In this document: in pieces, positions 5,049 through 36,199 of the stretch | Position numbering within the stretch: position 1 is the stretch's first letter | Layout: each line of letters starts with the position of its first letter | NCBI RefSeq assembly: GCF_027497495.1 | Contig: NZ_CP114205.1 | Coordinates: 1 to 64,000 of the forward strand | Source of the DNA: Streptomyces tubercidicus | Lineage (GTDB): Bacteria > Actinomycetota > Actinomycetes > Streptomycetales > Streptomycetaceae | Length of the DNA stretch: 64,000 bases | Direction of reading: 5' to 3' | The notes under the pieces: generated by a model | What the model was told of the DNA's origin: nothing | What the model saw: only the letters and a program-made list of their open reading frames with translations | Database searches by the model: none | Translations under genes and position numbers: made by a program

Positions 5049-5078
5049 CTAGGTCCGCAGGCGTACCGGGGGGGAACT

Positions 5079-22100: not shown

Positions 22101-22598
22101 CCCGCGGGCCGGCCCGGTGGCGGTGAGAACCACGCCCTTGAGGCCCAGGGCGTGTGAGGTGTCCTGCCCCAGGACTGCGACCTCGATCGTGTTGGCGCCG
22201 CGGGTGGTGCGTTTGGTGGGCTTGGTCAGGGTGATGGGCAGGTCACCGGGCTTGGCTTTGGCGTGAGCGACCGTGGTGGTGAGGCGGGCCGTTCCAGTGG
22301 TTGGCCAGGTGGTGGTGCGCTGTTGGTCGGTGCGAGCACGCTGTCGGTCGGCCGTGTCGGCTGCCGCTGCCTTGCGTAACTGGGCGGCGGTGCGGGGATC
22401 AGGTTTGGCAGTGAGAGGTTTGGTGCTGGCTGCGCGTGGTGCGGTGAGGCTGGGGCGGCCCAGGGGGTCAGGGGCGGCGGCGAAGGCGACGGGCGAGATC
22501 AGGCCTGGCAGAAGGGTGAAGCTCAGTGTGACGGCGATGCGCTGGGTCCAGCGGCGCCCTCTGGGGGGCGTGGAGCGCGGCAGGTCGGTGGTGTACAT
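16101..22598 (-). CDS. Secreted Rhs/YD-repeat polymorphic toxin
   Basis: About 2,165 residues from the ATG at 22598, which is preceded by AAGGAGAA. A signal peptide lies near residues 15-45 (RIAVTLSFTLLPGLISPVAF). A long N-terminal region leads into many YD/Rhs repeats (YDALGRPT, YDSLGRVT, YDLFGRQT) and then the Rhs core end (YDPLTGAFLSVDPL ... NPTTNSDPTGLG). The variable C-terminal toxin of about 270 residues ends in a helical segment with HERQHVMQ, an HExxH-type zinc metallopeptidase motif, followed by EHAWERAAYASE. The Rhs shell should encapsulate the toxin for release to competitors. It is flanked by the immunity candidate downstream and the LamG protein upstream. The reading frame is intact. 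Confidence 0.9.
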   Translation of the reverse strand: MYTTDLPRSTPPRGRRWTQRIAVTLSFTLLPGLISPVAFAAAPDPLGRPSLTAPRAASTKPLTAKPDPRTAAQLRKAAAADTADRQRARTDQQRTTTWPTTGTARLTTTVAHAKAKPGDLPITLTKPTKRTTRGANTIEVAVLGQDTSHALGLKGVVLTATGPARGGSTQIGINYAAFASAYGGDYAGRLRLMSLPTCALTTPDKPACRHLSPQRFTNQRARQQITAPLTFKAGAGGRKMVLALAAGTKSGAGDYKATPLAASSTWEAGGSSGSFTWSYPLRTPPAAAGPTPDLNISYDSGSVDGRTASTNNQGTTIGEGFDLTSSYIERKYGSCDDDGQDDKFDQCWKYDNASLVLNGKATELVKDDTTGHWHLKNDDASLVTHHTGADNSDDNGEYWTVTTADGTTYTFGLNKLPGAGADDRTDSVWTAPVFGDDKDEPGYDNGTTFAKRDKKQAWRWNLDLVQDTHANAMTYWYQAETNNYDKLGDDNTATPYTRGGYLKEIRYGQRAGSLFSATPAASNKVVLNYTERCTATGDGCDSLTKDTRDNWPDVPFDAVCKDDDKCTGNVAPTFFTRKRLTSLTTYAWDTTATTPGYAPIDAWNLKQQYLDPGDTGDSSDQSLWLDEIKHTGKRGTDIALGPVRLDHEFKPNRVDGASDNILSLEKPRLKTVTSEAGAQTIVSYAEADCIAGQTMPKADHNTRRCYPVYWKPNGGSADPQLDWFQKYRVTSVSTTDPHGGSVAVQHTYTYSGGGAWHYNDDPLTPAKERTWSLWRGYEQVTHLTGDPSGTQSKTTTVYMRGMNGDRLLAADGKTLDPDKRRTATVTGIKATDITDSEQYTGFTRETATYNNAAYTSGTVNDPWSKRTATQHKSYADTEAYFTRTGATHARTAITSGITPTDRIRTTATTYDDLGMPQTAEDRGDDAKNGDETCTRTWYARNDDGLTSLVSRTRTTAKPCTTSDTDLDLPADSSRPGDVISDTATAYDTTTWSANQKPTKGDAQWTARAKSYDTANTPTWQKTATTDYDALGRPTLVKDARDHTKTTTTYTPATSGPLLSKVTGDAKGYETTTTLDPATGSPLKATDPNGRITETEYDSLGRVTKVWLPNRSHLAQKTPNYVYGYHLAGNDLPWVSTGTLRGDGNGYNTTYEIYDSLLRIRQVQTPSPTGGRLIALTLYDSRGFASSTQSDIWDEKNDPSGTAVQTEGSQAPTQTDTTYDGAERPIKAVTRNYGIARWTTQTTYTGDTTSTTAPLGGQAVATVTDARGQTTQRLDYDGPTPTGTDYVATNYTYTAGGQPRTVTGPVAGTDTTKPTWSHTYDLFGRQTATADPDKGTTSTAYDDLDQVTTVTDAENRTLVHAYDELGRKTGTWQGSKTDANKLTAWTFDALAKGQPDASIRYEEGAGGKAYIQKVTRYDSLYQATESQLSLPESDPLVKAGVPKTLSTTTGYRLDGTISQASQPAVAGLPAETVSYTYNATGKQLTAKGTTGYLQGADYAPAGDLRRLTLGTNAGTSAKNTYLGYDYEPGTRRLTRSYVTDDTHPYRLQDLVFRQDDAGNVTSISDATTLGGTGKIDNQCFAYDGYRRLSEAWTPKTDDCSAGGRTSTNLTGAAPYWTSYTYNSAGQRKQQVQHATSGDTITTYSYGTPSKQPHPLTSTETNGKTQTYTYDKTGNTIQRPGSKANQALHWNSEGKLSSATEPDNTGTPSTTGYLYDANGDLLIRRAATDGVTTLYFGDTEIRLTTKGALSGLRYYTAAGKNIAVRTATGGASTKLTFLAADHHGTSSLAIDAGTFSYAKRYTTPFGAPRGTAPTAWPDDKSFLGAPADTGTGLTHIGAREYDPLTGAFLSVDPLLETDKPQTLNGYSYSSNNPTTNSDPTGLGNADCMTGVMQHCNNGVPGSGSVYHPERERHSGCSVGCYSGGSSGTAYTSSAGSVNSGHWGSTCNRFSCNKRWLSGPRGDDKDWLGGILTGIVDTATVGCQVFQIFGSVNCAGDAIREEMAGSGVGLETSAFSDGVRLGATFTPVPGAGFFKTGELAVGGMLARRGKNIGPFQELPIPMQKRTVKKVAQRAGVGLDGVKVKINRDADLVGRMLYGHTAPNRTITLYPDAFSSAENLTKTIGHERQHVMQIDTYGPATSLEQEHAWERAAYASEGQFWNYYNGRLG

Positions 22599-22747
22599 GT
22601 GGGTTCTCCTTGCGCCCGCTGTTGCGGGGCGCCGGTCATCAGCCCGGTGGTGCAAGCCGGGGCAGCGTGAGGTAGGTGGAGAGACTGCGTGTTGCGGCGG
22701 CAGTCGGGACGGCTGCGCGGCTGCCGTCCCGACTGCTGTTGCTCCGC

Positions 22748-25700
22748 TCAGGCGTCGTCAGGGGCTGCCAGCACCTGGGAGCGGACCTGATCTGCGGTCA
22801 TTGCGCCGGTCCACACGCGCAGTTCGGCCAAGGCCCCGGGGAGGTAGTGGCTGGTGGTGCCGGCCAGGCGGGCGTTGCCTGCGGTGAGGTCTCCGCTGCC
22901 TTGCTGGGGGGTGGCGAAGCCTGCTTCACCTTCGGGTTGCTGTGGGAACTGGCCGATGTATAGATGGGTCATGCCCAGCTGCTGTTGGCCGTCGTCGTCG
23001 GTGAAGGTCTCGGCGGCGTCGAAGACTCCGGTGAGGTCCACCCAGCTGTTGAGTTCCTTGGGGCTGATGGGTTCTTGTGCGGTGACCAGGCCGGTGTCGG
23101 TTACTTTGCCGGTGGCGTCGACGGCGGTGCGGCCGAACTTCCACAGGTAGGTGTCGGCTGCTGGTTTCTCCACCCACAGGGCCCAGGAGGATTCCTTGCC
23201 TGCCGGTGCGGCCTGGGAGAAGACCGCGGCGCGGTAGCCGACGGGTTGTTTGGCGAGGCCGGCTGAGTCCAGGCGGACTCGGGCGGAGACTGTGAAGGAT
23301 CCTGTCTCGTCGACGACGGGCCCGGTGGCGGTTGCGTAGCCGGTGGAGCCGTTGAGGACCAGGGACTGGTCCTGGCCGTCCTCGTCCTTCAAAGAGGCGC
23401 CCGTGGCGGAGAATTTCAGCGGACCGCGGCCGTAGGGGAAGCCGGTGCTGCTCGGGTCGTCGGGGTCTTCGGGGCTTTCGCGGACGCTTGCGCCCTGGGA
23501 GATGGCGGCGTCCCAGTGCCCGACGAGTTCATTGGCAGGGACGCCGTCCTGCTCAAGGGCAGCTTCCTGGTGCAGTTCGTCGGCGTTCAGCGGGCGCTGC
23601 CACAGGGCAACTTCGTCGATGCGGCCGCGCCAGTTCTCGCCGTAGAGGTCGGCGACCTTGCTGCGGCCGAACTGCAGTCCTTCGGAGGCCGTCCACGGCT
23701 TGTAGGTGCTGACGGTGCTTGCGGTGACGGGTTGGCCCTGGGGGCGTCCGTTGACGAAGAGCTGGATGGTGTCGTTCTTCGGGTCGGCGTCGTGCTGGGT
23801 GTCGAAGACGCCGGCCAGGTGGGTCCAGACTCGCGTTGTGGGATTGGGGCTGTCGGCCGGGGAGCGGATATAGGAGGCGGTCTTGCTGTCCTGGTCGGTG
23901 CGGTTGAACACCCACTTGCGGGTGGTGGCGGAGTAGTACAGCGTGAAGGCCGAGGCGTGTTCGCCCGGTTCGGTGAGCACCACGTGGTTCGCCGTGGTGT
24001 CGGTGAGGTAGACCCAGGCGGAGACGGTGAACGAATCTCCGGTGTTGAGGGCTGGTGTGCTGGTGGCCGCGTAGCCGTGTTGTTTGTTCGGGTCGGCGCT
24101 GTCCATCCACAGGGAGTAGTCGTGGGCGCCGCGGCGGGCGAGTGTGGACCAGCCGGCACCGGTGGTGTAGAGGGTGGCGTTGTGGCGGGTTCCCACGGTG
24201 GCTCTGTCGGCGGCGGTGGTGATGGCCGAGCCGGGAGGGGCGTCGTCGAAGTGCCAGCGGCCGGTGTTGCCTTCGGCGGGCGAGGCCTTGAAGACGTATT
24301 CGCTGGGTGGTCCGTAGCGGACGCGGCCGTCGGCGTCGAGGTCGGTGGCTTCGACGGAGAGGACCTGGGTACCGGGCAGTGACGGGGTGACGTCCTTGAC
24401 GGCGGGGGTGGCTCCGCTGACGGTCTTTGCGCCCTTCTTCGACGTGGTCAGCAGGCGGTAGCGGTAGCCTTTGACGCCGGATTCGCCGCTGTGGGGCTTG
24501 AAGGTGAAGGCGCCGGCGATGCCGGGACCGCCCTTGGGTTCGCACAGGCTGGTGGTGCATTCGGTATACGGGCCGGTGCTGGTGATCTGTGGCGCCTTGG
24601 GGGCGCTGGTGTCGATCTTCAGGTAGCACCAGGAGGAGTAGGGGGAGAACAGGTCACCGGACTTGGATCCGTAGTACCAGTGGGACTGGGTGCGGGACTT
24701 GAAGCGGTAGAGGCCGCCGTCGGCGCGCTGGCTTGTGACGGCTTTTTCCAGGGTGCCGTCAGGGTCCCAGCCCTTGTCGGGTTTGTAGTCGCTCCAGACC
24801 TTGTCCCATGAGCTGCCGTTCTTGCGTTCCATCCAGAACTCGGCCTGCAGTGAGCCTTTTTCTTCGCCGTTCTTGGGCTGCACTTTCGTTTGGACGCGTG
24901 CCTGGACGGTGGGGGTGGCGGTGGTGACGGTCAGCGGGTCGGAGGAGGAGGTGCGGCAGTAGGCGGTGGTGCCCGTTGCGGGGATGGCGCCGACGGAGGT
25001 CGGCAGGCCTGGCCGGGGCACGTAGTTGACCTTGAGCTCGGCGTTGTCGTCGAAGCGCTTCCACGCCCGGGGTTCGCTCTCGTCCGTTGCGCGCAGCATC
25101 AGCGTCAGGCGGTGGATCTTGCCGTCGGCGAAAGAGCGGACGGTGGAGGCGAGGTTTTCGTCGCTCTCCTGGGGGTTGTCGTTGAACTCCACCCAGGTGT
25201 CCGGCTGCGCGGGTGAGCAGTTCTTGTCGCGTCCGGCGGAGATGTAGCGGTCGCCCATGTGGTCGAGCGTCTTGGGTCCGGGCCAGCGGGTGCCTTCGGA
25301 GATGTTGTCGGTGCGCTTGAGGTCGACCCAGTACGGGGTGCAGTTGAACGACCAGGTCTCGTGGGCCCGGAAGGTGGCGTCGATAACGTACTTGCCGCTG
25401 AGCTTGGTCGGGGCGAACTCGAAGTACATGCGGTCGGTGTAACCGGAGCCGCAGTAGTAGCCGTCGGCGTTGCCGCACTTGCCGACGCCCATGGGCTTGT
25501 CGAACTGCCAGAACTTGTCGCCGTCGGAGGAGAGTTTGGTGCGCTCGGACACTCCGAGGCCGACGGGCGGGTCGATGTAGACGGGGTAGACGGTGTCCTT
25601 GCCGCGCAGCAGGTCCAGGTCCGGTGCGACGGAGACAGCGCTTGCGGTGACGGTGACGGGCAGCTCGGCGCTGGCGGCCCCATCCCCCGGGTGCGTGGGG

Positions 25701-26506
25701 TCGCCCCCTTCGGTGCCTGGCTGCTCGGCGGCCGTCGGCTGTGAGGGTTTCCCGCCTCGCTGTTCGGCAGCTTTGGACTTGGGTGAGGGAGGCAGTGTGC
25801 CGCCTGCTGAGTCCCACATCTGACCAGCTGGTCCGGTGAAGACGGCGTTGCCGTCGGAGTCGACGGCGCGCAGGCCACCGCCGGCACCGGGGATGACGCT
25901 GAGGCCCTTGGCGGAGGCGGTGAGCTTGATGTTTTCCAGCTCGGGGCTGTGCGCAGCTTCGGCTGTTTTGACGACGAGAACCTCGCGGTATCCCTCGGCG
26001 GTTGCCGTGAGCTGCAGGTCAACGTCCTTGAGGACATGGGCGTACGTGGCGGTTGCCCCGTTCAGCGCCGGGGTGGGTAGCGTGCCCGGCCAGCCGAACT
26101 TCATGGACTGCTCGTCCGTGCCTAACTGCAGCATGCCTGCCCCGGGCCCGCCGCCGGAGAAGTCCAGGTTCACCACTGCGGACTTCGGGCCTACGGTCCC
26201 GTCGGTGCGGCGTACCAGTGTGGTGTCGATGTTCTGCCACGAGCCGTCAGGTGCCTTTGCTCGCTGGGGCGTCGTGGACTGTGTCAGTGTGAACGTTCCG
26301 TCAGGATTAGCGACGGTCTGCGAGTACTCGGTGCGCTCTGACGTGACCTCCACCGGCTCGCCGGTCGCCCCGGCTCGCTGCAGTGCGGACTGCGTCATGG
26401 TCGAGGTCTTGCCGGCTGCGGTGGCTTGCGGTGGCGCGAGCGCGAGCACCGGAAGCGACGTCAGGAGCGCCGCGGTGGTGACGCTGGCTATGCCGCGTCT
26501 GGTCAT
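22748..26506 (-). CDS. Secreted LamG-domain protein, partner of the Rhs toxin
   Basis: About 1,252 residues from the ATG at 26506, with GAAGAAG upstream. A signal peptide (SVTTAALLTSLPVLALA) is followed by a DNRLRE/LamG-type surface protein layout. The C-terminal half holds two concanavalin/LamG-like jelly rolls: FTVSAWVYLTDTTANHVVLT ... GRIDEVALWQRPLNADEL, and FTVSARVRLDSAG ... GALAELRVWTGAMTADQV. Such proteins commonly precede Rhs toxins in Streptomyces and may help cell-surface display or delivery. The Rhs start lies 150 bp downstream on the same strand, so the two probably form one operon. Confidence 0.85.
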   Translation of the reverse strand: MTRRGIASVTTAALLTSLPVLALAPPQATAAGKTSTMTQSALQRAGATGEPVEVTSERTEYSQTVANPDGTFTLTQSTTPQRAKAPDGSWQNIDTTLVRRTDGTVGPKSAVVNLDFSGGGPGAGMLQLGTDEQSMKFGWPGTLPTPALNGATATYAHVLKDVDLQLTATAEGYREVLVVKTAEAAHSPELENIKLTASAKGLSVIPGAGGGLRAVDSDGNAVFTGPAGQMWDSAGGTLPPSPKSKAAEQRGGKPSQPTAAEQPGTEGGDPTHPGDGAASAELPVTVTASAVSVAPDLDLLRGKDTVYPVYIDPPVGLGVSERTKLSSDGDKFWQFDKPMGVGKCGNADGYYCGSGYTDRMYFEFAPTKLSGKYVIDATFRAHETWSFNCTPYWVDLKRTDNISEGTRWPGPKTLDHMGDRYISAGRDKNCSPAQPDTWVEFNDNPQESDENLASTVRSFADGKIHRLTLMLRATDESEPRAWKRFDDNAELKVNYVPRPGLPTSVGAIPATGTTAYCRTSSSDPLTVTTATPTVQARVQTKVQPKNGEEKGSLQAEFWMERKNGSSWDKVWSDYKPDKGWDPDGTLEKAVTSQRADGGLYRFKSRTQSHWYYGSKSGDLFSPYSSWCYLKIDTSAPKAPQITSTGPYTECTTSLCEPKGGPGIAGAFTFKPHSGESGVKGYRYRLLTTSKKGAKTVSGATPAVKDVTPSLPGTQVLSVEATDLDADGRVRYGPPSEYVFKASPAEGNTGRWHFDDAPPGSAITTAADRATVGTRHNATLYTTGAGWSTLARRGAHDYSLWMDSADPNKQHGYAATSTPALNTGDSFTVSAWVYLTDTTANHVVLTEPGEHASAFTLYYSATTRKWVFNRTDQDSKTASYIRSPADSPNPTTRVWTHLAGVFDTQHDADPKNDTIQLFVNGRPQGQPVTASTVSTYKPWTASEGLQFGRSKVADLYGENWRGRIDEVALWQRPLNADELHQEAALEQDGVPANELVGHWDAAISQGASVRESPEDPDDPSSTGFPYGRGPLKFSATGASLKDEDGQDQSLVLNGSTGYATATGPVVDETGSFTVSARVRLDSAGLAKQPVGYRAAVFSQAAPAGKESSWALWVEKPAADTYLWKFGRTAVDATGKVTDTGLVTAQEPISPKELNSWVDLTGVFDAAETFTDDDGQQQLGMTHLYIGQFPQQPEGEAGFATPQQGSGDLTAGNARLAGTTSHYLPGALAELRVWTGAMTADQVRSQVLAAPDDA

Positions 26507-26627
26507 GCTTCTTCGTGCACCGTGAATCCGGTGCCCCCACCCCAAACTCACAGTCCCCACCCTGAGTTCATATTCATTCACAGAAACTTCACAGCTGCGC
26601 GAGTTAACCCCGCCCCCAGTTCCACCG

Positions 26628-27151
26628 TCAAGCGTGACCCCCGTCACGTGACCAATACGCGTCATCGCCGCCCGGGCCGCCTCGGCGGCGCCACCGCACC
26701 CCTGATCCGACGTTGCCGCCGACCCTGGTGTGCTTGGCCTGCAGCACAATGCGGCCTCGCTGCCGGCCGCCGCCGATGACGTCGGCGGCCTGGTCGCCCT
26801 GACGGCCGACTTTGCGGGCCGACCAGCCGTCGCGGGTGAGCAGATCACGCAGCGCGATGTCGGATTCCTGGTCGTTCATGGCGTCGACTTCGGCGAGCGT
26901 GATCCGCAGCAGCGCAAGCATGGCGGTGCGGGTTCGTTGTGTGCGTGTGGAGCGCAGAATGCGCCATAGTCCGTACCCGAGGCCGCCAGCTGTGAGGGCG
27001 CCCAAAGGGGCCATGCGCGGACCACTGCACGGCGCGCGGCGAAAGCCGTCTGCACCACCAAGGTCAGTGCCGCCACGGCAATGACAGCAGCCGCAATGTG
27101 CTCGCCAGTACCGCGCGGCTTCCGCAGCCGCGGCCGACGCCTGGCCATCAC
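26628..27151 (-). pseudogene. Membrane-anchored Mrr-like restriction nuclease, frameshifted
   Basis: From the ATG at 27151, an N-terminus with a hydrophobic helix (HIAAAVIAVAALTLVVQTAF) loses frame near 27000. It continues as LGALTAGGLGYGLWRILRS ... IALRDLLTRDGWSARKVG and then GDQAADVIGGG ... RIVLQAKH. The last part matches the Mrr-type catalytic core (D...QAKH) of type IV enzymes that cut modified DNA. After GGNVGS the sequence no longer follows the family, so the tail is also lost. Likely non-functional. Confidence 0.75.
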
Positions 27152-27494
27152 CGCGTGGCCGACGGAGATGCCGCAGGCCGCGGCGAGACCGGATGGCCGG
27201 CTGCTTCCTCGCCTCCGAAGCCGAAGACCTGCCCCCGAAGCCAGACCCTGCGATGAGTCCGGCGATCATCCAGCCGCTCGTCTTCTTCCCCGCGGGCGCG
27301 GGTTGCGCAGGAAGGGCTTCCGCCGGCCACCATCGGTCCCGCTGCAAGAGCGGGGCCTCATCCGTCGTGGAGCAGGCGGACTCACATGGCGAAAAAAGGA
27401 GCGTGTTCGAATGTGCTCAGGCCGGCAGACGCACCCGAGCAGCCAGGGCGGACTGTGGTGCCCCACAGGTGCGGGTCGCTTCGTGAGCGCGGCT

Positions 27495-28556
27495 CTATGA
27501 CAGAAGTCGCGACAGCAGGTAGAGGACTGCCAAGGCTCCCAGGACTGTTGCGGCAATCTGCCAAGTCCGTTGCGGCGAGGGCAGGATGAAGACCTGGAGC
27601 GAGGTCGGGCCAGGGTAAACGTAGTAGACCCGATGCCGGTGTTCGGGCACAACCACCCGGGCCAGCGGCAGGTACCGCACGTCGGCCTCTCGTGCGATCT
27701 CACCGTCACGCGGCTTGAGGCGCGGCTTCAGCAGAGCCTTGAAATCGGCCTCGAGGCCGTCAGGGACAGAATCCTTGTGGGTGAGGAAGGTCTTGCGCCA
27801 GTCGCCGTACTCGCGTGCGTGCTGCCGCGCCACGTATGGCAGGCCCGACTCGGGCCACTTGATCTTCTCGGTCCGTGGCTGCCGGTTGATGATGCCTTCG
27901 GTCCACGTCACGGTGTGGCCGGTGCCCGCGCATCGCTTATGGGGCTCGGTTCCTGCGCCATCGCAGTTGGGACACTCTCGTGTCCCCCCGCCCCGGCAGG
28001 TCGAGCACATGGCGTGTCCGCGGCCTCGGCATGTGGCGCATGCAGCCTCGGCCGCCCCGCACTGTTTGCACGTGGCCCGCTCGTCCGCTGCCTGCCGGTG
28101 TTCTTCGGGAGCCTTCCGGATGCGGTGGCCCGTGCCGTCGCAGCGTAAGCACGCGTCGATGCCGCGGCAGTCGCTGCAGGAAGTGGTCGCCGCACAGGGC
28201 AGGTCCCCTCGGCCCTGGCAACGCGAGCAGGTCACTTTCCCGTTGCCGCAAGGGCAGGACTCCTCTTTTACCGACCCTCGTTGCACGAGCTTGTGTGTCG
28301 TCGCGACGGAGAGATCCTGCGGTGGGGCAAGGGGGTGACGCCTCAGCCTGTCGTACTGCGGGCGGCCCGAGAGGTCGAGTCGGCCGCGGTGAATACGCTC
28401 GTCCTCGGTACGGGTCTCCATGCACCGCACGACCGTTCCCTCAAGGAGCGAGTGCCAGGTGATCTCTCCTGAAACCGGCAAGCCCACCTTCGACGCTTCC
28501 CCACGCTCGGCGATGTGCTGTCGCACGGCTTGCAGGATGTCCGTCTCGCTCAGCAT
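27495..28556 (-). CDS. Tail-anchored protein with DnaJ-type zinc-finger repeats
   Basis: About 353 residues from the ATG at 28556, with a run of Gs as ribosome site. The middle third is packed with CxxCxGxG-like motifs (CSRCQGRG, CLRCDGTG, CATCRGRG, CSTCRGGG, CPNCDGAG) as in the DnaJ cysteine-rich domain, but there is no J domain. The C-terminus is a single hydrophobic helix (AATVLGALAVLYLL), making it tail-anchored with the zinc domain in the cytoplasm. It may act as a membrane chaperone or scaffold, and its role is unknown. Confidence 0.75.
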   Translation of the reverse strand: MLSETDILQAVRQHIAERGEASKVGLPVSGEITWHSLLEGTVVRCMETRTEDERIHRGRLDLSGRPQYDRLRRHPLAPPQDLSVATTHKLVQRGSVKEESCPCGNGKVTCSRCQGRGDLPCAATTSCSDCRGIDACLRCDGTGHRIRKAPEEHRQAADERATCKQCGAAEAACATCRGRGHAMCSTCRGGGTRECPNCDGAGTEPHKRCAGTGHTVTWTEGIINRQPRTEKIKWPESGLPYVARQHAREYGDWRKTFLTHKDSVPDGLEADFKALLKPRLKPRDGEIAREADVRYLPLARVVVPEHRHRVYYVYPGPTSLQVFILPSPQRTWQIAATVLGALAVLYLLSRLLS

Positions 28557-28690
28557 GAGCCCCCCCTGTTTCAGCCGCGGGTACTTTCCCAGAGACCGTG
28601 GTGGGCACCGTAGCCAAAACGCACCACGGGTCAGTGCCGAACCGGGCAATCCGTGCGGCCGGCCGGCGTGCCCCTTCGCTTGCGCGGGTG

Positions 28691-29392
28691 TCAGCGGGGT
28701 CTCCAGGTGCGGATCTCCAGGTGGGTGATGTGGGCGTCGGGGTGGATGCGGCCGGTCTCCAGGAGCCAGTGCTGGACGGCTGCGGTCACGTCGCCGCCTG
28801 CTGCGTCGACGCGTTGGGCGAAGTCGGTGGCGTCGAAGCCTCCGGTGGTGGCGGATCCGTAGGAGCGTTCTTCGGTGTGGTCGGCACGTTGGACGACGTC
28901 GCGGCGGATGCCGGGTGAGTCCGCGCGGCTGCCGGAGGCCAGGGTGAACCCGCTCTTCGGCATACGCACCGTGAAGGCGAGGCGCAGCCTTTGGCGGGCT
29001 GCTTCGGCGATCAGGGGGCGTAGGCGGGCTGCGCCGGAGGCGATGGCTTGGGCTCCGGCGCGGCCGGTTCCGGTGCCGGTGGGGGTGATGAGGACGGCTT
29101 TGGTGCGTACGCGGGCGCGGGTGCCGGCGGCGGTGGTGCGGCGGGTGATGTGGGGGGCTGCGAGAGCGGCGAGTTCGGCTGTGTCGGTGATGCCGGCGTG
29201 GACGGCGGCCAGGGCGTGGCGGAGGGCGGGGACGAAGGCGGCGCCCTTGTGGCGTGTGTAGAACTGGGAGACGAGGGAGGCGTCGCGGTTGATGATGTGG
29301 GCGATGTCCCGTTTGGTGTAGCCGGCGGCGCGGAGTTGGTCGGAGAGCTGGGCTGCTTCGTTCAACTCAGGGGTGCGGCGCTGGGGTGGCAT
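28691..29392 (-). CDS. HTH protein, terminal-protein (Tpc-like) candidate
   Basis: A 233-residue protein. Residues about 8-55 form a helix-turn-helix (LRAAGYTKRDIAHIINRDAS). The rest is basic and helical, with a conserved-looking C-terminal block (FDATDFAQRVDAAGGDVTAA ... IHPDAHITHLEIRTWR). Its ATG shares one base with the polymerase-like gene stop (TGATG), implying coupled translation. Streptomyces terminal proteins that cap telomeres are similarly small, with an N-terminal HTH, and are encoded beside a telomere-associated partner. The role is inferred from context; the nucleotide-attachment residue (Ser/Thr/Tyr) cannot be picked out. It could also be an ordinary plasmid regulator. Confidence 0.55.
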   Translation of the reverse strand: MPPQRRTPELNEAAQLSDQLRAAGYTKRDIAHIINRDASLVSQFYTRHKGAAFVPALRHALAAVHAGITDTAELAALAAPHITRRTTAAGTRARVRTKAVLITPTGTGTGRAGAQAIASGAARLRPLIAEAARQRLRLAFTVRMPKSGFTLASGSRADSPGIRRDVVQRADHTEERSYGSATTGGFDATDFAQRVDAAGGDVTAAVQHWLLETGRIHPDAHITHLEIRTWRPR

Positions 29393-31599
29393 CAGGCGTC
29401 ACCGCCGGTGCGGGTGCGGTGGAGGGCGGTGCGTCCTGCGTCGCGCAGGGCGAGCAGTTCGTCCTCGGTGGTGGGGGCGGGGACGGGTCCGGTCAGGTGG
29501 CCTTTGTGGAGGTATTCGCCGGGCTGGCCGTGGTAGGGCCAGTTCTGGGGTGCGGTGAGGTAGACGGCGTCGGTGCGGAAGGCGACGACGGTGCCGGGGG
29601 GTGCGTGGAGGGCGCCGACGTGGGTGTTGTCGTCGCGCATGCGCATGGACAGCAGGGCGGCGCGGGCGCCGGACCAGATGGTGGCGGCCCATTCGGGGTG
29701 GGCGTTGGGGTCGCGGGAGAAGCCGGTGGGGCGTTGCCAGGTGACGTGGTCGTCGTCGAAGCCGATGATTTCGGCGTCGGCGGGGATGTCGCGCTCGGCG
29801 GTGCGGGGGGTGGTACCGGTGACGGTGCGGGGGCGTTGGGCGAAGGAGCCGATGCCGTACAGGAGCAGGGAGCGCACAGCGCGGGAGGCGAGGTGGGCGG
29901 CCTGGCGGTGGGTGGGGTCGCCGTGGAGGTCGGCTTGGGCTGAGAGAGAGGCCCAGGCTTCCTTGAGTTTCCTGGACCAGTCATCCAGGGGCTTGCCGTC
30001 TTCCCACAGCAGGCCGTCGAGGATTTCGACCTTCCACGAGGCCAGGGGGTTGGACAGGGCGGTGTAGACCTCGGGGCCGCCGGCCCAGGTGGTGAAGGTG
30101 GTGCCGGGGGTCCGGGGGTAGTGCCAGGCGCGTTCGCCGGGGGCGGGGGCCGGCAGGATGCCGACGTGGTTCCAGCCGTCGGGGACGGTCACGCGCACCT
30201 GCCAGTGGCCGCAGCCGAAGAGGGCCTTGGTCTGCTCCTTCTCGCTCCAGGAGGCGAAGGTGGCGGCGGTGATGCGGCGGGGGGTGCCGACGGGGGATTT
30301 CCAGGTGTGCTTGGCGTAGGCGAAGGTGCGGTCGTACTCGACGAGGGACGGCAGCTGGTCGGGGACGTCGGGTGGGGTGATCAGTTCGGTGCGGCCCTGG
30401 CCGGCGGTGGCGTGCAGGAGGCCGCGCAGTTCTTCGGACAGGACGGGGTAGCCGTCGGAGAACTGGCCTCGGGCGGGGATGGTGCGGGTCCACAGGTCGC
30501 GGCCGGTCTGGGAGGGGGAGCCCATGATGACGGCGTCGGGCCAGTGGGATCGTAGGGCCTTCCACAGCAGGACGAAGGCGTCGCGGATGGTGGTGGGGTC
30601 GGCTCCGTCGGGGTCGAACCACTCCCCCACCGACCGGATTTCGACGTGCTGGTCTGCGCTTTCGCGCTGGTAGCGGCCGACGGGGTGGCGGGCGTGGACG
30701 AAGTGCCCGGCCATGCGGTCCTTGCCGCGGCCGGTGTCGGTGCGCCACCCGGGGATGGGGGCGTTCAGCCAGGCGGCGACGGCGTCACGCAGGAACGGGT
30801 ATCGCCCGGCCTCACGGTGCCAGGGGTCGCCCGCGGTGAGGTAGATCCGCTCCACGCCCTCGGGGATGGTGTGGAAGACGGCCTGCAGGATGTCGGCCGC
30901 CGACCGGCTGCCAAGATCGAGGCGCGTGGCCTGGTCTCGGTAGACCAGCATGCCGGTGGCGGTGTCGAGGAAAGCGGTGGAGCGGGCCTGCTGGGTGAAG
31001 TTCGGCCGGGTGGAGGCCAGATGGGCGGTGTGACCGACCCAGCGGTCGCCCTCAGGCCCCTCCGGCAGAGAAGGCAGCGGCCGCGGCACGCCGGCAGCAG
31101 CCAGTGAGGACGGCGTGCTTGCCGGAGGTGGCTGTGGGGCGGCCGCGGGCGCCTTCGCGGCCGGGGCGGCGTGGGCCGTGGCAGGAGGGGTCTCGACTGG
31201 GGCCGGCGTGGACGGGACTGCGTCGGCGGGCGCCGGTGTTCGGGGGCCGCGGGTCATGGGCGGAGCAGCTGCTCCCGGAGCCGGCTCAGGCGTCTGTGCG
31301 GCGCAAGGCTCCTCAACAGGTTGCGCGTGGACGTCAGAGTCGGGAGCAGCCGGCGCAGGCCGCGCGGGAGTGGTGAGACTGTCCGGTGCCAGGATGGGGG
31401 CGATGGCGACGACTTCCGCGAGGCTCATGCCGGCCGCTGGCGCGATCCGCTCGGCCTTGGCTTTCTCGTACCCGGCCAGCGCGGTAACGCGGCGGGCCCG
31501 TTCCGTCTCGAGCTTTGCCACCTCGGCCTGCTTCTTCTTGATCTCGTCACGCAGGGTGCGCAGTTCGGCGAGAGAGGCGGTGTAGGCCTTGCTGTCCAT
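29392..31599 (-). CDS. Protein-primed family B DNA polymerase-like (Tac-like) protein
   Basis: A 735-residue protein with AAAGGG upstream of the ATG. Residues 5-50 are a coiled coil, about 75-180 an Ala/Pro linker, and about 190-700 a globular domain. The order of segments resembles the DNA_pol_B_2 class: a motif A-like EYDRTFAYAKHT at 421-432, then GHWQVRVTVPDG and YPRTPGTTFTTWAGGPEV; a motif B-like helix RAVRSLLLYGIGSF at 573-586; and a motif C-like FRTDAVYLT at 674-682. The canonical DTDS is degenerate to RTDA, so activity is uncertain. With the HTH gene downstream it is a candidate telomere-associated polymerase like SCP1 Tac, recalled from memory. Confidence 0.55.
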   Translation of the reverse strand: MDSKAYTASLAELRTLRDEIKKKQAEVAKLETERARRVTALAGYEKAKAERIAPAAGMSLAEVVAIAPILAPDSLTTPARPAPAAPDSDVHAQPVEEPCAAQTPEPAPGAAAPPMTRGPRTPAPADAVPSTPAPVETPPATAHAAPAAKAPAAAPQPPPASTPSSLAAAGVPRPLPSLPEGPEGDRWVGHTAHLASTRPNFTQQARSTAFLDTATGMLVYRDQATRLDLGSRSAADILQAVFHTIPEGVERIYLTAGDPWHREAGRYPFLRDAVAAWLNAPIPGWRTDTGRGKDRMAGHFVHARHPVGRYQRESADQHVEIRSVGEWFDPDGADPTTIRDAFVLLWKALRSHWPDAVIMGSPSQTGRDLWTRTIPARGQFSDGYPVLSEELRGLLHATAGQGRTELITPPDVPDQLPSLVEYDRTFAYAKHTWKSPVGTPRRITAATFASWSEKEQTKALFGCGHWQVRVTVPDGWNHVGILPAPAPGERAWHYPRTPGTTFTTWAGGPEVYTALSNPLASWKVEILDGLLWEDGKPLDDWSRKLKEAWASLSAQADLHGDPTHRQAAHLASRAVRSLLLYGIGSFAQRPRTVTGTTPRTAERDIPADAEIIGFDDDHVTWQRPTGFSRDPNAHPEWAATIWSGARAALLSMRMRDDNTHVGALHAPPGTVVAFRTDAVYLTAPQNWPYHGQPGEYLHKGHLTGPVPAPTTEDELLALRDAGRTALHRTRTGGDA

Positions 31600-31620
31600 C
31601 GCAATCCCTTTTGGAGTGGG

Positions 31621-32226
31621 TTAGTTAACGGCGTTGCCTGCAGCGACATAGGCGATCGCCCCGCCGGAGTGAGAGGCAAGGCGGGTGCCCAGCAGCAGGT
31701 CTGCGACGGCGCGGTCCTGGGCTGCGGGAGCAGTCAGGTGTTTCGTGGGGCCGGTGAGGTCGGTGATGTAGCCGGCCAGGACAGCATCGGGAAAAGCGTG
31801 TCGGCCCTGCTCGTTCTTCTCCCAGCGGGATAGTCCGGTGAGGACGGCGACGACATACCCGGCAAGGGTCACCGGCAAGATTTTCCCAGCTGCGACGCTC
31901 GCCGCGTCGCACCGCCACCAGCCACGCAGCGCCTTGAGAAGGTCTTCAGGCGTGAGGGAGGCTGCGAAACCGATCCAGTCACGGTCCGGATCGTGGGCCC
32001 GTTGAGCGACGTCCACCCGCAAGACGGCGAGCTCCCGGACGTCCAGCTGCTCCAGGGGGGCACTGTGCCGTGCGCCGAGGGCTTGGACCATCCCGAGGGG
32101 GGCCATGACGCGTACGCCGCGGCGTGACAGTCCCGGCAGCAATTCGGCACGCACGAGACGGCGGAACGTGGTCACGGCACAGCCAAGTTCTTCAGCAGCC
32201 TGACCTGTTGTCAGCAGCACACGCAC
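31621..32226 (-). CDS. MerR/excisionase-like HTH protein heading the telomere operon
   Basis: A 201-residue protein with an N-terminal winged HTH (LLTTGQAAEELGCAVTTFRR ... RRGVRVMAPLG) and a C-terminal helical domain of unknown type. The GTG at 32226 is uncertain; a second GTG six bases further in is possible. Its TAA is 21 bp from the polymerase-like gene, on the same strand, so the three genes form an operon. It probably regulates the operon or binds DNA ends as a partner. Confidence 0.65.
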   Translation of the reverse strand: MRVLLTTGQAAEELGCAVTTFRRLVRAELLPGLSRRGVRVMAPLGMVQALGARHSAPLEQLDVRELAVLRVDVAQRAHDPDRDWIGFAASLTPEDLLKALRGWWRCDAASVAAGKILPVTLAGYVVAVLTGLSRWEKNEQGRHAFPDAVLAGYITDLTGPTKHLTAPAAQDRAVADLLLGTRLASHSGGAIAYVAAGNAVN

Positions 32227-32279
32227 TCCAGCAGGCGGACTCAGATATCTGATTCGGCTATGACACTAGCCGGATGAGT

Positions 32280-34103
32280 AACCCGGGTCAAAGAAAGGCA
32301 CATCGATAGCTGCGAGCCACGAGCGCGCTTCGCTCCCGCCGCGCGCGCCGAACGCGCCCGTCAGCGGCAGGTGCCCGGGCGCGGCGACGGCCAGCGCTGG
32401 AGCGCCGAAGACGCCCTGGGCGAGAGGGAGTTCGCCGCGTTGATGCGCACCCTGCACCGTGAGGCGGACGTTTCGGGCGGAGCACGGCCTGTTCCCGCTT
32501 GGCCGGCCCTGACCGAAGCCAGCAACAGATCGTCGCCGAGCGTGCCCTGTCGTTTTGTGTGCCGGTCGGACGCCGCGGACGAGGCCGGTGCCGACCTGAT
32601 CACCGACGTCTGCCGGGTGGTCGAGGCCTGCGACCTCACCCTGCTCGATCGGGTGCCGGCCGCGCACTGGCTGCAGTGGCTGCCCGGTTTGTGGAAGGTG
32701 CCGGGCGGCTACGCGCTGCTGTCTTCGGCGCTCCAGCGGGCCGCCGCACACGACGAGGGCGCCACGACCGCGTTCCTCACGCGGACGATGACCTCGGACG
32801 TCACCGTCGTCGCCTTCCATCAACGGCATATGCGACTGCCGCAGCTCAGTGCGCAGGCGCTGGACTGCCTCAACGAGGGGCACCCCCGGCCCACGCCCTG
32901 GCCGCGCTTCTCGGCATCGCCGCCGCAGCGCTGCCCGCAGAGACGGCCGAGACGGCCCTCGGTCTGCTGCAACGCAGCGTTGCCGTCTGCGCGGACATCG
33001 GCACGGATGCCTCCGCTGACCGGGACACCGCGGTGGCGTCAGGTGCCTGCCTGGCGGCGTGCCAGATGACTGCACCCATGTTCGACGCCCTGATCAAGAT
33101 TTTCGAGGACGACGTCCTGCCCGCGCGAGACATCATCGGCCAGGCCACACGAACGCGAACAACGCCTGGTCCGCTCTGGCCCTGTCGCAGCGCGGACGAC
33201 TGTACCTGTGGGCGCACCGGGCACTTCCTCGACAGCTGACCGCCCCGGACGCCTCGTGCGCAGCAGCCCCGTCGACGAATTCGCCTCCACCATTGCGGGC
33301 CCGCTCATCTCGCAGCCGTCCCTGTCAACGCCGCCGTCCCGGCCGACCTCGCCGCGCAGACCGGCAGCGTGTGGCTGCAGGCGGACGCGGTGCAGATGCG
33401 GGATACCGTGCGAGCCCAGGCATGGCTGCCACTCACCGCCGCGGAAGTGCGAGAGGTTCTCACCTCACCGTCCCGCCGGATCACCGGGTCCCGGGAGCAG
33501 TTCACTGCCGTGGTCGCCGAGGCGCTGGGGGACATCGCTGACGACCTGCGTACCGACCGGGCGCTGCGCGCCCAGCTCTGGCATCGCCGGCGCCGGAACA
33601 ACGACTGGGTCAGCTATGTGCCCGCCGAAGAGCGCGAGATGTCGACCTGGCTGGCCCGTGAGCTGGAGCGACGGCTGCGGGACCGGGCGGCCGTCTTGCG
33701 GGAGGTCGAGATCAACCCGCGCCTGGCGGAAACCGATGGCGATATCCCCGACCTGCTGGCCGTCGCCCACACCACCGGTGCCCAGGCGCTGTCCGTGCCT
33801 GGCGAGGTGAAGTGCAGTTGGCACAGACAGGTCGTCACTGCCATCCGGGACCAGCTCGGCCTGCGCTACCTGCAGGGCCCCCAGGGGACGACGGGTGTGT
33901 ATGTGGCTGTCTACTTCGGCGGCAGCGCCTGGGACACCGGCGACAGCCGACGCACGCAGTCAGCCCGCCGTAGCCTGGACCGGCTCCGGCAAGAACTCCG
34001 TCAGCATGCAGCCGATCTGGCCGGGCACGGCATCACCGCCCATGTCTGTGTTCTGGATGCCTGGTTGGAAGCCGATGCCCTGTCCGACCAGAGCCCGGGA
34101 TGA
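32280..34103 (+). pseudogene. Broken large protein with C-terminal PD-(D/E)XK nuclease
   Basis: Coding sequence jumps frame at about 32,885, 33,150, 33,240 and 33,340. The pieces include AFLTRTMTSDVTVVAFHQRH, LLGIAAAALPAETAETALGL, NAWSALALSQRGRLYLWAHR and the final open block from about 33,369. The last block contains VEINPRLAETDGDIPDLLAV ... LSVPGEVKCSWHRQVVTAI ... YVAVYFGGSAWD, a plausible restriction-endonuclease-like active site (E, D, EVK). It is the tail of a large defence-type protein, now decayed, although the nuclease block itself is still open. Confidence 0.65.
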
Positions 34104-34990
34104 GCAGACCAGACCTGCGTGATCGCCCGGCCTGGGCTGTCGGCAGCCGCAAGCCGTCCGAGCGGCGGCGCCCGGACGGCCCAAAGACGCGACCACCATG
34201 GCCCGGTCCCTCCTCGGCTCGATCTGTCCGGGCTCGCAGCACGATGGTGACGATGATCGCCGCACGCAACTCACCCAACCATCGGCTCGACCGCAGAGAA
34301 GGGGCGCAGCCACAGCTCGCTCAGCGCGCCCTCGGCCGCCACTACCGGCGACTCCGCAACGCTGAGCAATCAACGCTCACAGTGAGCAGATCTCAGAAAC
34401 TCGCAGGTCATATCGGCTCAGCCGACGCAACCTGCCAACTTTATCCATGAGTAACTTTCAGTGTGTCCCGCTCCCCAAGCTGAGCAATGCACAGGTCAGC
34501 CTTGAAGGGCTGCTCACTTTCAGGAAGGCCGCGACAACCGCCCTGGCCAGTGAACAACCAGCGCACCGCGACGGGGCGCCGGCGACCGGGCGGCCCGTCT
34601 CGCAGGCCGCCTCATCAAGAGCTGAATTCTTGAGGTTCATCCCATGGGAACAGCCCCTGACCGTTGCCGGTGAAAGGTCAAGCCCTGGCCGCCCGGCCTT
34701 ACGGCCTGGCGGCGGGCGGCCGCGGTACACCGAGTCCGACCAGGCATTGGTGGTCTTGGGCTTGATGCCGGCGTAGACGGTCTGGCGCCGCTGAGCTTGG
34801 TCCCCGGGCCAACCGCCTGCTCGGCGCTGGTCGCCTCGATGCCCTTGGAACGAAGGACACCGACGGCAGCCCACGGGGAATCGTGCAGCTGATGCCCGGC
34901 TTGGCGGGCGGACACCAGGAATAGCCCGTCTGGGCTTCGGGCCGCCAGGCCTTCACCTGGCGGCCCGAAGCCTCTGCGCGGCCGTGGGCA
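34104..34990. other. No gene seen; contains a 17-bp perfect hairpin
   Basis: No recognisable gene on either strand. Between two decayed genes, the perfect inverted repeat at 34933-34972 (below) is the only structured element that I can see. Confidence 0.6.
34933..34972. terminator. Perfect 17-bp stem-loop, probable bidirectional terminator
   Basis: GGCTTCGGGCCGCCAGG at 34933-34949 pairs perfectly with 34956-34972 around a six-base CCTTCA loop. There is no T-run, as usual in actinomycetes. It lies between a convergent pair of decayed genes. Confidence 0.7.
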
Positions 34991-34999
34991 GCGGTCACC

Positions 35000-35740
35000 G
35001 GCGCGCTCGGCCGGAGCGCGACGCTCCTCACCGTGCCGTGACAGTTGCGCGGCCGTGCAGTCGTTATCCGTCGGCTTCGCGAGCGGCGGCGGCGGCGGCG
35101 GCGGTGGCGGCTCGCTCGGGGTCGGTCCCACAGGCGGGTGGTCTGGTCGGCTGCAGTGGTGGCGAGGGTGTGTCCGTCCGGGCTGAACGCCACGAAGTGG
35201 ACTTCGTTGGTGTGGAACTTGAGGACTGCTGTCGGGCGGTGTGTTCGGGTGTCCCAGAGGCGGATGCAACGGTCGGCCCCAACGGTGGCAACGGTTCGGC
35301 CGTCAGGGCTCAAAGCGATGCCGTTCACCGAGCCGGTGTGACTTGTCAGGGTGGCGAGGGACGTCCTCGAAGCGCTGTCCCACAGCCGTGCCGTGCCGTC
35401 GTGGGACGCTGTGCCGATGGTCCTGCCGTCGGGCTGAACGCGGCGTCCGGCAGCTCCCCGTGGTGTCCTTTCAAGATGCCGGAGGTGCGACGGGAGGCGA
35501 CGTCCCGGAGCCGCGCGGTGTGTCGGCGCTGGCGCTGATCACGGTGCGTCCGTCCGAGCTGAAACGCACCGAGTCCACCGTCTCCTGGTGTCCTCGTAGC
35601 ACGGCGAGCGGTTTTCGGGATGCCACGTCCCACAAGCGCACCGTGTGGTCCGCGCCACCGCTCGCCACCGTCCGGCCGTCGGGAGAGAACGCCACCGACA
35701 TTGCTGATTGGCTGTGGCGGCCCAGCATCGCCTGCACGTG
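35000..35740 (-). pseudogene. WD40 propeller fragment
   Basis: On the minus strand, blades read [35 protein letters not shown], then, after frame changes near 35,500 and 35,340, [20 protein letters not shown] and FSPDGHTLATTAADQTTRLW. These are the C-terminal blades of a STAND-WD40-type protein. The NTPase part is absent, and the C-terminus runs into an arginine-rich out-of-frame tail. From 35,741 to 36,199 I see no gene. Confidence 0.8.
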
Positions 35741-36199
35741 CCCGCCAGCCTAGAAGCCGGGTCACCAGGCACACAACGATCCGGGACGAAGCGCGTACGG
35801 GATCCGGATGGATACCTGCTGGTCCTGTCCACTCATTCCTGGGCTCGTGAGCTGATGTCGACGGCCGCGTAGTGCGGCTCAACTCAAGGTTTCCGTGACG
35901 CGGGTCATGAACCCGTCGCTGCCGCAGCTCGGGGTGCACCGCGGCTGGCGGCCACCTTGTCCTGGCGCCCCACGTTGAACCGAGGGCGATTGGCGCTCTC
36001 GTAGGGCAAGGACCTGCCCCCTCCCGCCCGTCAGCCAGGTCCTCGGCAGATGCTGCTGTTTTGCTTGTGTTGCTGACCGGAGGTCAAGCTCCCCGTTTCG
36101 GTGGGCGCAGTGCGATGTGGGGCGTCAGACCGCAGCCGACGCCCCACAGGTACACCACTAATGAACCCCAGAAGAGGGCAGCCCTACCGGAACGGTCCC

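Follow-up and report, generated by a model that had tools for sequence, protein, structure and literature searches.

Which polymerase primes the telomeres of Streptomyces has been unclear. On the 8.28-Mb linear chromosome of Streptomyces tubercidicus, whose left end is analysed here, three genes near both chromosome ends look like an end-copying machine. The DNA analysed (the window) comprises 64,000 nucleotides and begins with the first base of the chromosome's only contig (8,284,047 bp). We consider it very likely that these genes form the chromosome's telomere-replication (end-patching) operon, a divergent relative of tac-tpc of SCP1, with P0001 as its polymerase. The features are as follows.

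31621..32226, minus strand: P0003, 201 aa, GTG start, HTH protein; first gene in the operon
29392..31599, minus strand: P0001, 735 aa, member of the Tac family; residues 178-735 predicted to fold like a phi29-type family-B polymerase
30310..30336, minus strand: motif A of P0001, residues 422-430, YDRTFAYAK; D423 invariant, proposed metal ligand
29842..29874, minus strand: motif B of P0001, residues 576-586, R-x7-G-x-F; R576 and G584 invariant
29554..29580, minus strand: motif C of P0001, residues 674-682, FRTDAVYLT; D677 invariant, proposed metal ligand
28691..29392, minus strand: P0002, 233 aa, with an HTH; candidate protein primer (terminal protein), placed as Tpc is
2..36001, no strand: part of the terminal inverted repeat, which spans at least 36 kb; operon copy at both chromosome ends
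1..240, no strand: chromosome end (telomere); begins GGGGGGCGGGGGGC, then close-packed palindromes

The operon runs on the minus strand from the 201-aa HTH gene through the 735-aa gene to the 233-aa HTH gene, with all three reading frames where an initial annotation of this DNA had placed them. That annotation took both junctions for overlaps; P0001 and P0002 do share a TGATG, and the 21 bp between P0003 and P0001 are a spacer. A GTDB scan returned 134 relatives, the best 80 of which were retained as loci for neighbour counts. A P0002 homologue lies downstream of the P0001 homologue in 80/80 of these best loci, with a gap of at most about 0.8 kb and often of a few bases, and a P0003 homologue lies upstream in 48 of the 80, one of these being only a partial match. 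The three-gene arrangement is more than chance. On pSCO2 and pFRL3, and likewise on four plasmids from other genera, the large gene is also directly followed by a small one.

P0001 belongs to the Tac family, judging from its similarity to a Tac-sized, 645-aa pSCO2 protein (32.5% identity over 534 aa, E 5e-56) and from the way the literature names the genes of that plasmid; identity to a Tac-sized protein of pFRL3 reaches 59.7%. One report assigns tac/tpc to pSCO2 and SCP1-type telomeres to both pSCO2 and pFRL3 (PMC8743542), and both plasmids carry the P0001-type gene pair. The comparison with Tac/Tpc drawn in the initial annotation was therefore apt, whereas its description of a new operon was too strong, because P0001 is a Tac-family member. 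This family is common on plasmids (58 plasmid records), with relatives on plasmids, some of them linear, of Micrococcus, Kineococcus, Clavibacter and Curtobacterium. One earlier report described tac-tpc-type homologues on chromosomes (PMC7188733).

The N-terminal ~175 residues of P0001 are largely Pro/Ala-rich and lie outside the modelled region. For residues 178-735, AlphaFold2 (68 sequences) gave a model with a pLDDT of 86.8 and a pTM of 0.86. A Foldseek search of the PDB with this model returned nine matches with E <= 0.001, every one of them a chain of phi29 DNA polymerase; the best has probability 1.00 (E 9.0e-11), and the polymerase-terminal protein complex 2ex3 is included. TM-scores were moderate (0.38-0.46 by query length) and identity was ~12%. 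VIA-align likewise placed phi29 polymerase first, with Z 19.5 (415 aligned, 6.0 A) against 12.4 for the best other entry, and the 50 rows listed are polymerases. Among viral models, 39 matched with E <= 1e-3: 30 named DNA polymerase or PolB, seven nameless and two otherwise named. The predicted model has a family-B polymerase fold, and the likeness to protein-primed polymerases that had been noticed from three short segments is supported by its wide margin in favour of phi29. The structural match stops at phi29 residue 512-523, and the thumb therefore looks short. P0001 is, on this model and jointly with the telomere-replication reading as a whole, highly probably a cryptic, divergent phi29-like family-B DNA polymerase.

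The three segments, YDRTFAYAK, YGIGSF (residues 581-586) and FRTDAVYLT, coincide with the invariant D423, R576/G584 and D677, respectively. D423, Y428, R576, G584 and D677 are invariant in ten hand-chosen members from six genera (P0001 and nine from the 58 plasmid records). The two aspartates, which we take to be the counterparts of phi29 D249 and D458, do not vary in two further alignments either, one with 68 rows and one with 22, the former consisting of the window's protein and 67 of the 80 loci, with 13 redundant or truncated loci omitted. D677 sits between two predicted strands, and motif B has the same spacing as K-x7-G-x-F of phi29. Motifs A and B are 153 residues apart and motifs B and C 101, compared with 134 and 75 in phi29, a spacing that would be compatible with TPR1 and TPR2 insertions. 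The canonical strings DxNSxYP, KxxxNSxYG and DTDS are not matched, P0001 having DRTFAYA, R-x7-G-x-F and RTDA; of the signature residues, SLYP and the motif-B Asn are missing and RTD replaces DTD, and we therefore term the protein phi29-like and divergent and not a canonical member. The phi29 enzyme has four exonuclease acids; in the 22-row alignment, the 3'-5' exonuclease acids appear not to be conserved, E320 being the sole invariant acid in core residues 1-190.

Sequence comparison detects this kinship faintly. Neither P0001 nor P0002 has a significant match in Pfam, NCBIfam or PHROGs, and P0001 has no Pfam match at all. Pfam DNA_pol_B_2 touches three of the ten members (E 4.4e-4, 0.0015 and 0.22), all below cut-off, the best being residues 291-475 of the pSCO2 protein with 19.7 bits against a gathering cut-off of 25.8, and none of the 68 close members at E <= 0.1. 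Searching PDB sequences with the family profile yielded four unconvincing matches (best E 0.022). The Tac profile matched phi29 alone poorly (E 0.056) and eight phi29-like polymerases no better (E 0.057 and 0.048, the latter above 40 column-shuffled decoys); these eight phage polymerases came from 225 records, with Idefix omitted, being longer. A forced global profile alignment of Tac with the phi29-like polymerases gave nothing usable, and the profile comparison is too weak alone.

The loss of several canonical motif residues and the unconserved exonuclease site would also suit a polymerase-derived, non-catalytic telomere scaffold that tethers P0002 while the host's DinB1 or DinB2 primes, and one study describes DinB1 or DinB2 as required for end patching in vivo (PMC4513846). 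The motif A and C aspartates nevertheless stay invariant in both the 68-row and the 22-row alignment. According to the same source, Tac is necessary and sufficient for adding dGMP to Tpc, with no polymerase added; for SCP1, Tac by itself has been shown to deoxynucleotidylate Tpc when given dGTP and to elongate it briefly (PMC4513846). We regard the scaffold as unlikely, and catalysis by P0001 as the preferred reading.

At its right end the contig repeats the sequence of its left end minus one G, and 36,000 compared bases show 0 mismatches; a second operon copy occupies the mirror position in the right terminal repeat, and the frames are open in both repeats. The window's end opens GGGGGGC, and folding of its 3' strand predicts seven hairpins, each with a 4-nt loop (GTCA six times, TTTA once), the terminal C-run pairing inward to give a closed cloverleaf. 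Folded as DNA, this strand reaches -57.9 kcal/mol, whereas 200 shuffles give -29.7 +/- 3.4 (z -8.21). In its opening G-run with the C behind it and in its 4-nt loops, this end matches the SCP1 type. Both ends of pSCO2 read GGGGGGCA, the right end of pFRL3 reads GGGGGGGC, and similar ends occur on several other replicons with a Tac-family gene, in a comparison of five ends picked for their likeness. The records of pFRL3, S. laculatispora and pKVP2 have no G-run on the left, and several of the Tac-bearing chromosome contigs examined lack it too. The start of the window's end differs from that of the archetypal telomere, in line with the non-archetypal end proposed initially.

An archetypal tap-tpg pair elsewhere in the genome would have spoken against this assignment, as the initial annotation had recognized. 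No Tap or Tpg scores above cut-off in the host genome: a Tpg remnant covers 58/183 positions (77.5 bits against a cut-off of 90) and a Tap remnant consists of two fragments, one with a stop. The archetypal tap-tpg has decayed to fragments. P0001 itself has no match to the NCBIfam Tap model and P0002 none to the Tpg model (E <= 10). Across genomes, Tpg falls below cut-off in six of the seven whose open Tac frame is on a contig of 7 Mb or more and in one of the 11 others (Fisher p 0.0025, with classes transcribed by hand), a contrast confounded by draft assemblies. Family membership, a matching end, the decay of tap-tpg and a phi29-like predicted fold together point to a divergent Tac/Tpc system with a cryptic family-B polymerase.

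The operon is likely of plasmid origin, and it might be a passenger, the tac-tpc of an invading linear plasmid lodged in the terminal repeats of a chromosome whose ends are served otherwise. The wide distribution of the family on plasmids fits this, as does the telomere exchange in natural populations proposed in a further study (PMC7205883). The resemblance of the chromosome end to those of several other family-bearing replicons, the lack of any Tap or Tpg above cut-off and the frames kept open in both repeats argue against it, and we think it improbable; the plasmid source seems to have brought its own telomere along. That P0001 and P0002 are a phage-like replicon or defence module with protein-primed synthesis and no relation to chromosome ends is very improbable. 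The phage polymerase fold and a weak PHROG match of P0003 (function unknown, E 4.4e-4) speak for it; against it, viral contigs gave 11 pattern matches and no encoded relative, the best PHROG matches are E 0.018 for P0001 and 0.16 for P0002, and the gene pair is linked with replicon ends.

If P0001 is the polymerase of an end-patching operon, P0002 would be its primer, a candidacy inferred from gene linkage and analogy. When 81 sequences are aligned, S39, S42, T46, T141, S159, T173 and Y178 are among its hydroxyl residues conserved in 95% or more; T141, S159, T173, Y178 and those within the HTH would be candidates for the priming residue. With P0002 as query, tblastn found Streptomyces and Kitasatospora partners only (27 records, E <= 0.01); the pSCO2 partner, 32% identical in the multiple alignment, is not among these records. 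P0003 is proposed to be a telomere-binding or regulatory HTH protein, with matches to Pfam HTH_17 (E 7.8e-5) and an NCBIfam excisionase-like model (E 0.0032) that both lie below cut-offs. We hypothesize that outward replication leaves the 3' strand single-stranded, that this strand folds into the predicted hairpin cloverleaf, and that P0001, as a Tac-family protein, binds it together with P0002. D423 and D677 would hold two metals, with R576 standing in for the motif-B lysine, and P0001 would add the first G residues onto a P0002 hydroxyl, copy a short stretch and hand over to another polymerase, while P0002 would remain at the 5' end and cap it. An unconserved proofreading site in the N-terminal domain and a short-looking thumb would fit such a start-only enzyme. 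P0003 would be a separate HTH for telomere recognition or regulation.

The same reasoning may extend to Tap. Counterparts of motifs A, B and C are found in 12/12 aligned Tap sequences (the 12 Tap genes obtained as loci, when 197 genomes scored above cut-off), all of which have an N-terminal HTH, a fused domain that may play a P0003-like role. The Tap and Tac profiles match with a probability of 76% (E 2.2e-5), or 16% (E 0.0016) with fewer rows; the Tap profile found no match among the phi29-like polymerases. The Tap core model, built from locus L021, is of low confidence (pLDDT 56.2, pTM 0.42, eight sequences). Foldseek ranks phi29 polymerase in all nine top places for it, with E from 3.9e-4 to 9.4e-3 and three matches at E <= 0.001, and its VIA rows are polymerases. 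Since the top VIA Z is only 7.1 and phi29 is absent among the 50 rows listed, the Tap model is treated as suggestive. The ten-member Tac profile, at positions 324-547, also gave weak matches at 20 places in 18 same-genus genomes; these looked like noise at first, and 16 of them, in 14 genomes, lie inside Tap genes as judged by eye. The other four are in genomes G058, G111, G119 and G138, the G058 place being ~0.6 kb ahead of a Tpg gene; G091 and G161 have short fragments, which were left out of this count. Tap has reportedly been presented as a primase (Yang 2017). Tac and Tap probably represent two branches within a single cryptic phi29-like family-B polymerase family, which would start archetypal ends too and whose Tac-type pair would also serve the Micrococcus, Kineococcus, Clavibacter and Curtobacterium plasmids. 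In a 2015 study, Tac and Tap are said to have no polymerase motif and no shared homology, and Streptomyces to encode no family-B polymerase (PMC4513846); in the open-licence literature and listings searched, no paper was found that calls Tac or Tap a family-B polymerase.

With a predicted phi29-like fold and two invariant aspartates, the priming question becomes directly testable, D423 and D677 being named as mutation targets. If the reading is true, it links bacterial chromosome ends to protein-primed phages and points to a family-B enzyme whose synthesis begins on a protein and soon ends. If Tac and Tap are one family, a domesticated protein-primed polymerase starts Streptomyces ends, contrary to the statements quoted above. 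The analysis also locates genes of the tac-tpc type, next to a telomere that matches them, at the ends of a chromosome, and finds their relatives on plasmids from several further actinobacterial genera.

Among known systems, SCP1 Tac/Tpc, pSCO2 and pFRL3 share with this operon the gene order of large protein followed by small protein, and the pSCO2 and pFRL3 large proteins are homologous to P0001. The G-run then C and the 4-nt loops are those of SCP1-type ends (PMC4513846, PMC7205883). Unlike SCP1, pSCO2 and pFRL3, the operon is chromosomal, lies in both terminal repeats and is headed by an HTH gene; P0002, with 233 aa, is shorter than Tpc with its 259 aa (PMC3572947), the likeness of the two lying in gene position; the window's palindromes also differ in sequence from those of pSCO2. 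In Arthrobacter pAL1 (pAL1.101/pAL1.102), a large protein is said to deoxynucleotidylate the terminal protein encoded next door; pAL1 is not among the matches listed for the P0001 family. With phi29 polymerase, P0001 shares the overall predicted fold, the motif A and C aspartates, R/K-x7-G-x-F, motif spacings of similar order and a gene adjoining that of a small primer protein. It differs in its low identity, the lost SLYP, motif-B Asn and first motif-C Asp, the unconserved exonuclease acids and the short-looking thumb, and the Tac product is described as only short (PMC4513846). Archetypal Tap/Tpg differs in its telomeres, in the N-terminal HTH of Tap and in an NCBIfam Tap model that P0001 does not match, whereas the two-protein logic of end patching, the motif counterparts in all 12 Tap sequences and the match to the Tac profile are common ground.

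The putative telomere operon comprises three genes:

32226–31621, minus strand: P0003, an HTH protein of 201 aa
31599–29392, minus strand: P0001, the protein assigned to the Tac family, 735 aa
29392–28691, minus strand: P0002, a candidate terminal protein of 233 aa

The TGATG junction of P0001 and P0002 stands as described in the initial annotation, but the 21 bp given there as an overlap of P0003 and P0001 is a spacer. The window is the beginning of one 8,284,047-bp contig, in which P0002 is present twice (28694–29392, minus strand, and 8254657–8255355, plus strand), as is P0001. The reversed right contig end equals window bases 2–36001 with 0 mismatches in 36,000, which places the operon within terminal inverted repeats of at least 36 kb, and from these repeats we infer that the chromosome is linear. 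Other genes of the terminal region are:

2038–3984, plus strand, some 2 kb away from the telomere: 648-aa ORF that matched nothing in Pfam at E ≤ 0.001
9167–13438, minus strand, in the terminal repeat: 1423-aa protein with trypsin-like, STAND NTPase (nSTAND1) and WD40-type domains
16101–26848, minus strand, with strong GC skew: 2184-aa protein with weak SpvB/RHS-repeat matches, adjoining a 1366-aa protein with laminin-G-like domains
27495–28649, minus strand, directly downstream of the operon: 384-aa ORF with repeated CxxC motifs mid-protein, by eye like a DnaJ-type zinc-finger region

Structure prediction, proposed earlier as a check on the family B polymerase-like reading of P0001, gave a confident model for residues 178–735, aligned with 67 relatives (pLDDT 86.8, pTM 0.86), and this model is nearest to phi29 DNA polymerase. 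All nine Foldseek matches in the PDB at E ≤ 0.001 are phi29 DNA polymerase (best E 9.0e-11, TM-scores 0.38–0.46, identity about 12%), including its complex with the phi29 terminal protein, and a structural aligner superposed 415 residues on the phi29 enzyme (Z 19.5, 6.0 Å, 11% identity), the best non-phi29 entry reaching Z 12.4. Among viral models, 39 matched at E ≤ 1e-3, of which 30 are named DNA polymerase or PolB, seven are nameless and two are otherwise named; they include the polymerases of Bacillus phage GA-1 and Streptomyces phage WheeHeim. The Pfam family DNA_pol_B_2 was matched, below its cut-off, by three of ten diverse family members, best by the pSCO2 protein (E 4.4e-4, residues 291–475), and by none of 68 close relatives at E ≤ 0.1.

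The three segments singled out in the initial annotation correspond to motifs A (D423 with Y428), B (R576-x7-G584-x-F586) and C (D677). The polymerase signature residues are replaced in part. D423 and D677 are invariant in overlapping alignments of 10, 68 and 22 rows, and F586 is kept in at least 90% of the 10-row alignment. In the predicted model, D677 lies between two strands and R576–G584 inside a long helix, as would be expected of palm and fingers. A working exonuclease appears unlikely from the alignment, since E320 is the sole invariant acid in core residues 1–190 (22 rows). The match to phi29 ends at phi29 residue 512–523, and the thumb, given its position in phi29, is therefore judged short or absent in the P0001 model; loss of exonuclease and thumb would suit a start-only enzyme.

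By tblastn, P0001 matched 58 plasmid records, 40 of them listed, from Streptomyces (26), Curtobacterium (7), Micrococcus (6), Kitasatospora (5), Cutibacterium (5) and other genera; among the matches listed from this search and a GTDB genome scan, the closest are in Streptomyces. More distant relatives (25–33% identical) include those on pSCO2 of S. collinus, pKRAD01 of Kineococcus, pLMV7 of Micrococcus and pCSL1 of Clavibacter, each followed immediately by a gene for 199–287 aa. pKRAD01 and pLMV7 are recorded as linear, the latter with terminal proteins reported at its 5' ends (PMC3869321), and pSCO2 and pCSL1 as circular, whereas an excerpt of PMC8743542 treats pSCO2 as linear. The same excerpt ascribes SCP1-type telomeres to three replicons, pSCO2 and pFRL3 among them, and states that tac and tpc are on pSCO2. 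As judged from the gene table, the 645-aa/199-aa pair is the sole pSCO2 pair of fitting sizes, and P0001 can hence be assigned, by sequence and via pSCO2 as named in the literature, to the Tac family. The GTDB scan with the family alignment gave 134 relatives; at the best 80 of these, a P0002 homolog lies downstream in every case, no more than about 0.8 kb away, and a P0003 homolog upstream in 48. P0002 itself matched 27 records, in Streptomyces and Kitasatospora only, and the small partners on pSCO2 and in other genera, without significant match to P0002, are linked to it by position. Excerpts of earlier work note tac-tpc homologs on the K. viridifaciens chromosome (PMC7188733) and none in the Streptomyces population of PMC7205883. 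A K. viridifaciens plasmid record also has such a pair, which may be the same genes as those noted on the chromosome, though under different locus tags.

Tap and Tac are described, in an excerpt of PMC4513846, as sharing no homology and lacking a polymerase motif. The Tac profile matched Tap genes with E-values between 2.3e-6 and 8.3e-4: its 20 weak matches are spread over 18 genomes, and 16 of them, in 14 genomes, lie within listed Tap genes. With 22 Tac and 12 Tap rows, profile comparison gave a probability of 16% (E 0.0016), all three motifs being in register; with 77 and 20 rows it gave 76% (E 2.2e-5, score 52.5; reversed profile 17.4, 40 column-shuffled profiles at most 28.4), and here only motif B was in register, while motif C was displaced and motif A fell beyond the aligned part. 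All 12 Tap sequences carry, in the same order, G-[IL]-D-x-N-x-A-F, K-A-T-V-K-G-G-x-G-K and S-D-C-x-V-Y (spacings of 146 and 70 residues in Tap locus L101). Several results speak against a family-B relation of Tap. The motif-A Asp is replaced in five of eight more divergent Tap-like proteins, and no match was obtained in profile comparison of Tap with polymerases or between DNA_pol_B_2 and any of the 12 Tap proteins. The Tap model is of low confidence; its nine best Foldseek matches are phi29 polymerase, but its VIA rows are all below Z 8. Tap is rated a likely but unproven family-B relative.

At 13 of the 80 Tac loci, the sequence before the Tac gene codes, in place of P0003, for a counterpart of the N-terminal HTH of Tap that is 54–61% identical to one Tap over about 72–76 residues and forms a separate short ORF in all five loci inspected:

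L064, L066, L067, L068, L069, L071, L082, L083, L084, L086, L089, L092, L095

Tap may hence be a fused version of such an HTH-plus-polymerase pair; in the window, the place is held by a different protein, P0003. In eight of the 80 Tac loci, the tac-type operon is preceded, a few kb upstream, by an open frame for a full-length Tap-like protein:

L021, L022, L038, L047, L052, L053, L056, L080 (first 4 kb)

The motif-A Asp is replaced in the frames of L038, L052, L053, L056 and L080, as is motif C in L052, L056 and L080, and by sequence these frames therefore look like inactive Tap paralogs.

The initial annotation had proposed looking for Tpg and Tap elsewhere in the genome; fragments of each are present:

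8031757–8032349, contig 1 of the window's genome (G000): adjacent tap and tpg fragments, about 252 kb from the right end

Tpg is represented by positions 126–183 of 183 (77.5 bits, cut-off 90) and Tap by two adjacent pieces covering positions 467–622 of 695, one with a stop. Weak Tap matches elsewhere mean little, because they also turn up in four of 14 control genomes, E. coli among them; here, with a Tpg fragment adjoining, a relic of the archetypal system is likely, which suggests a past telomere switch. Of 295 genomes in the genus, 213 have Tpg at or above its cut-off and 197 have Tap at or above its own. An open Tac frame scoring above 500 bits occurs in 18 genomes. In seven of them it lies on a contig of 7 Mb or more, and six of these seven have Tpg below cut-off, versus one of the other 11 (Fisher p 0.0025), a contrast that is confounded by draft assemblies and in which the classes were chosen by us, contig size in the group of 11 being deduced from contig number except for G100. 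For G086, G196 and G253, Tpg status was taken from E-values, and G085, G028, G273, G233, G091 and G161 were excluded for broken, partial or weak Tac.

The window begins with GGGGGGCGGGGGGCATAAATGCCCC. Both ends of pSCO2 read GGGGGGCA and the right end of pFRL3 GGGGGGGCGGGG; a G-run is absent at the left ends of the pFRL3, S. laculatispora and pKVP2 records, the left end alone being covered for the last two. For the 3' strand of window bases 1–240, the predicted fold (−57.9 kcal/mol, z −8.21) has seven hairpins, each with a 4-nt loop (GTCA in six, TTTA in one), and the terminal C-run pairs inward. Four ends of other family-bearing replicons, picked for visible likeness (G100 contig 2 left, G284, G253 and pFRL3 right) align with the window at a mean column identity of 65% and have a TGTGGTTTATGTCGGGCCGC-like sequence in common; eight of 37 consensus pairs show two-sided change in some end, with a slightly unfavorable covariation term (+0.96). 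Both ends of Tac-bearing G052 are palindrome-rich with similar motifs. Among the other Tac-bearing contigs examined, no such sequence is seen at G069, G079, G285 contig 1 or the right end of G100 contig 2, or at the contig ends closest to the Tac gene in L069 and L071, possibly because the assemblies end early. Among nine comparison chromosomes, G228, G226 and G031 end in palindromes that we take to be archetypal; these were not recognized in the other six, some of which have other palindromes.

Three points are new: the predicted polymerase identity, the location on a chromosome together with a telomere of its own, and the evidence for a possible single family uniting Tac and Tap. SCP1 telomeres start with up to six G, then C, then A, and in vitro Tac adds dGMP to the terminal protein, followed by short extension (PMC4513846, excerpt). 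The simplest account for the window's operon would be end patching as with SCP1, in which a Tac-type polymerase would join dGMP to the terminal protein and extend it briefly.
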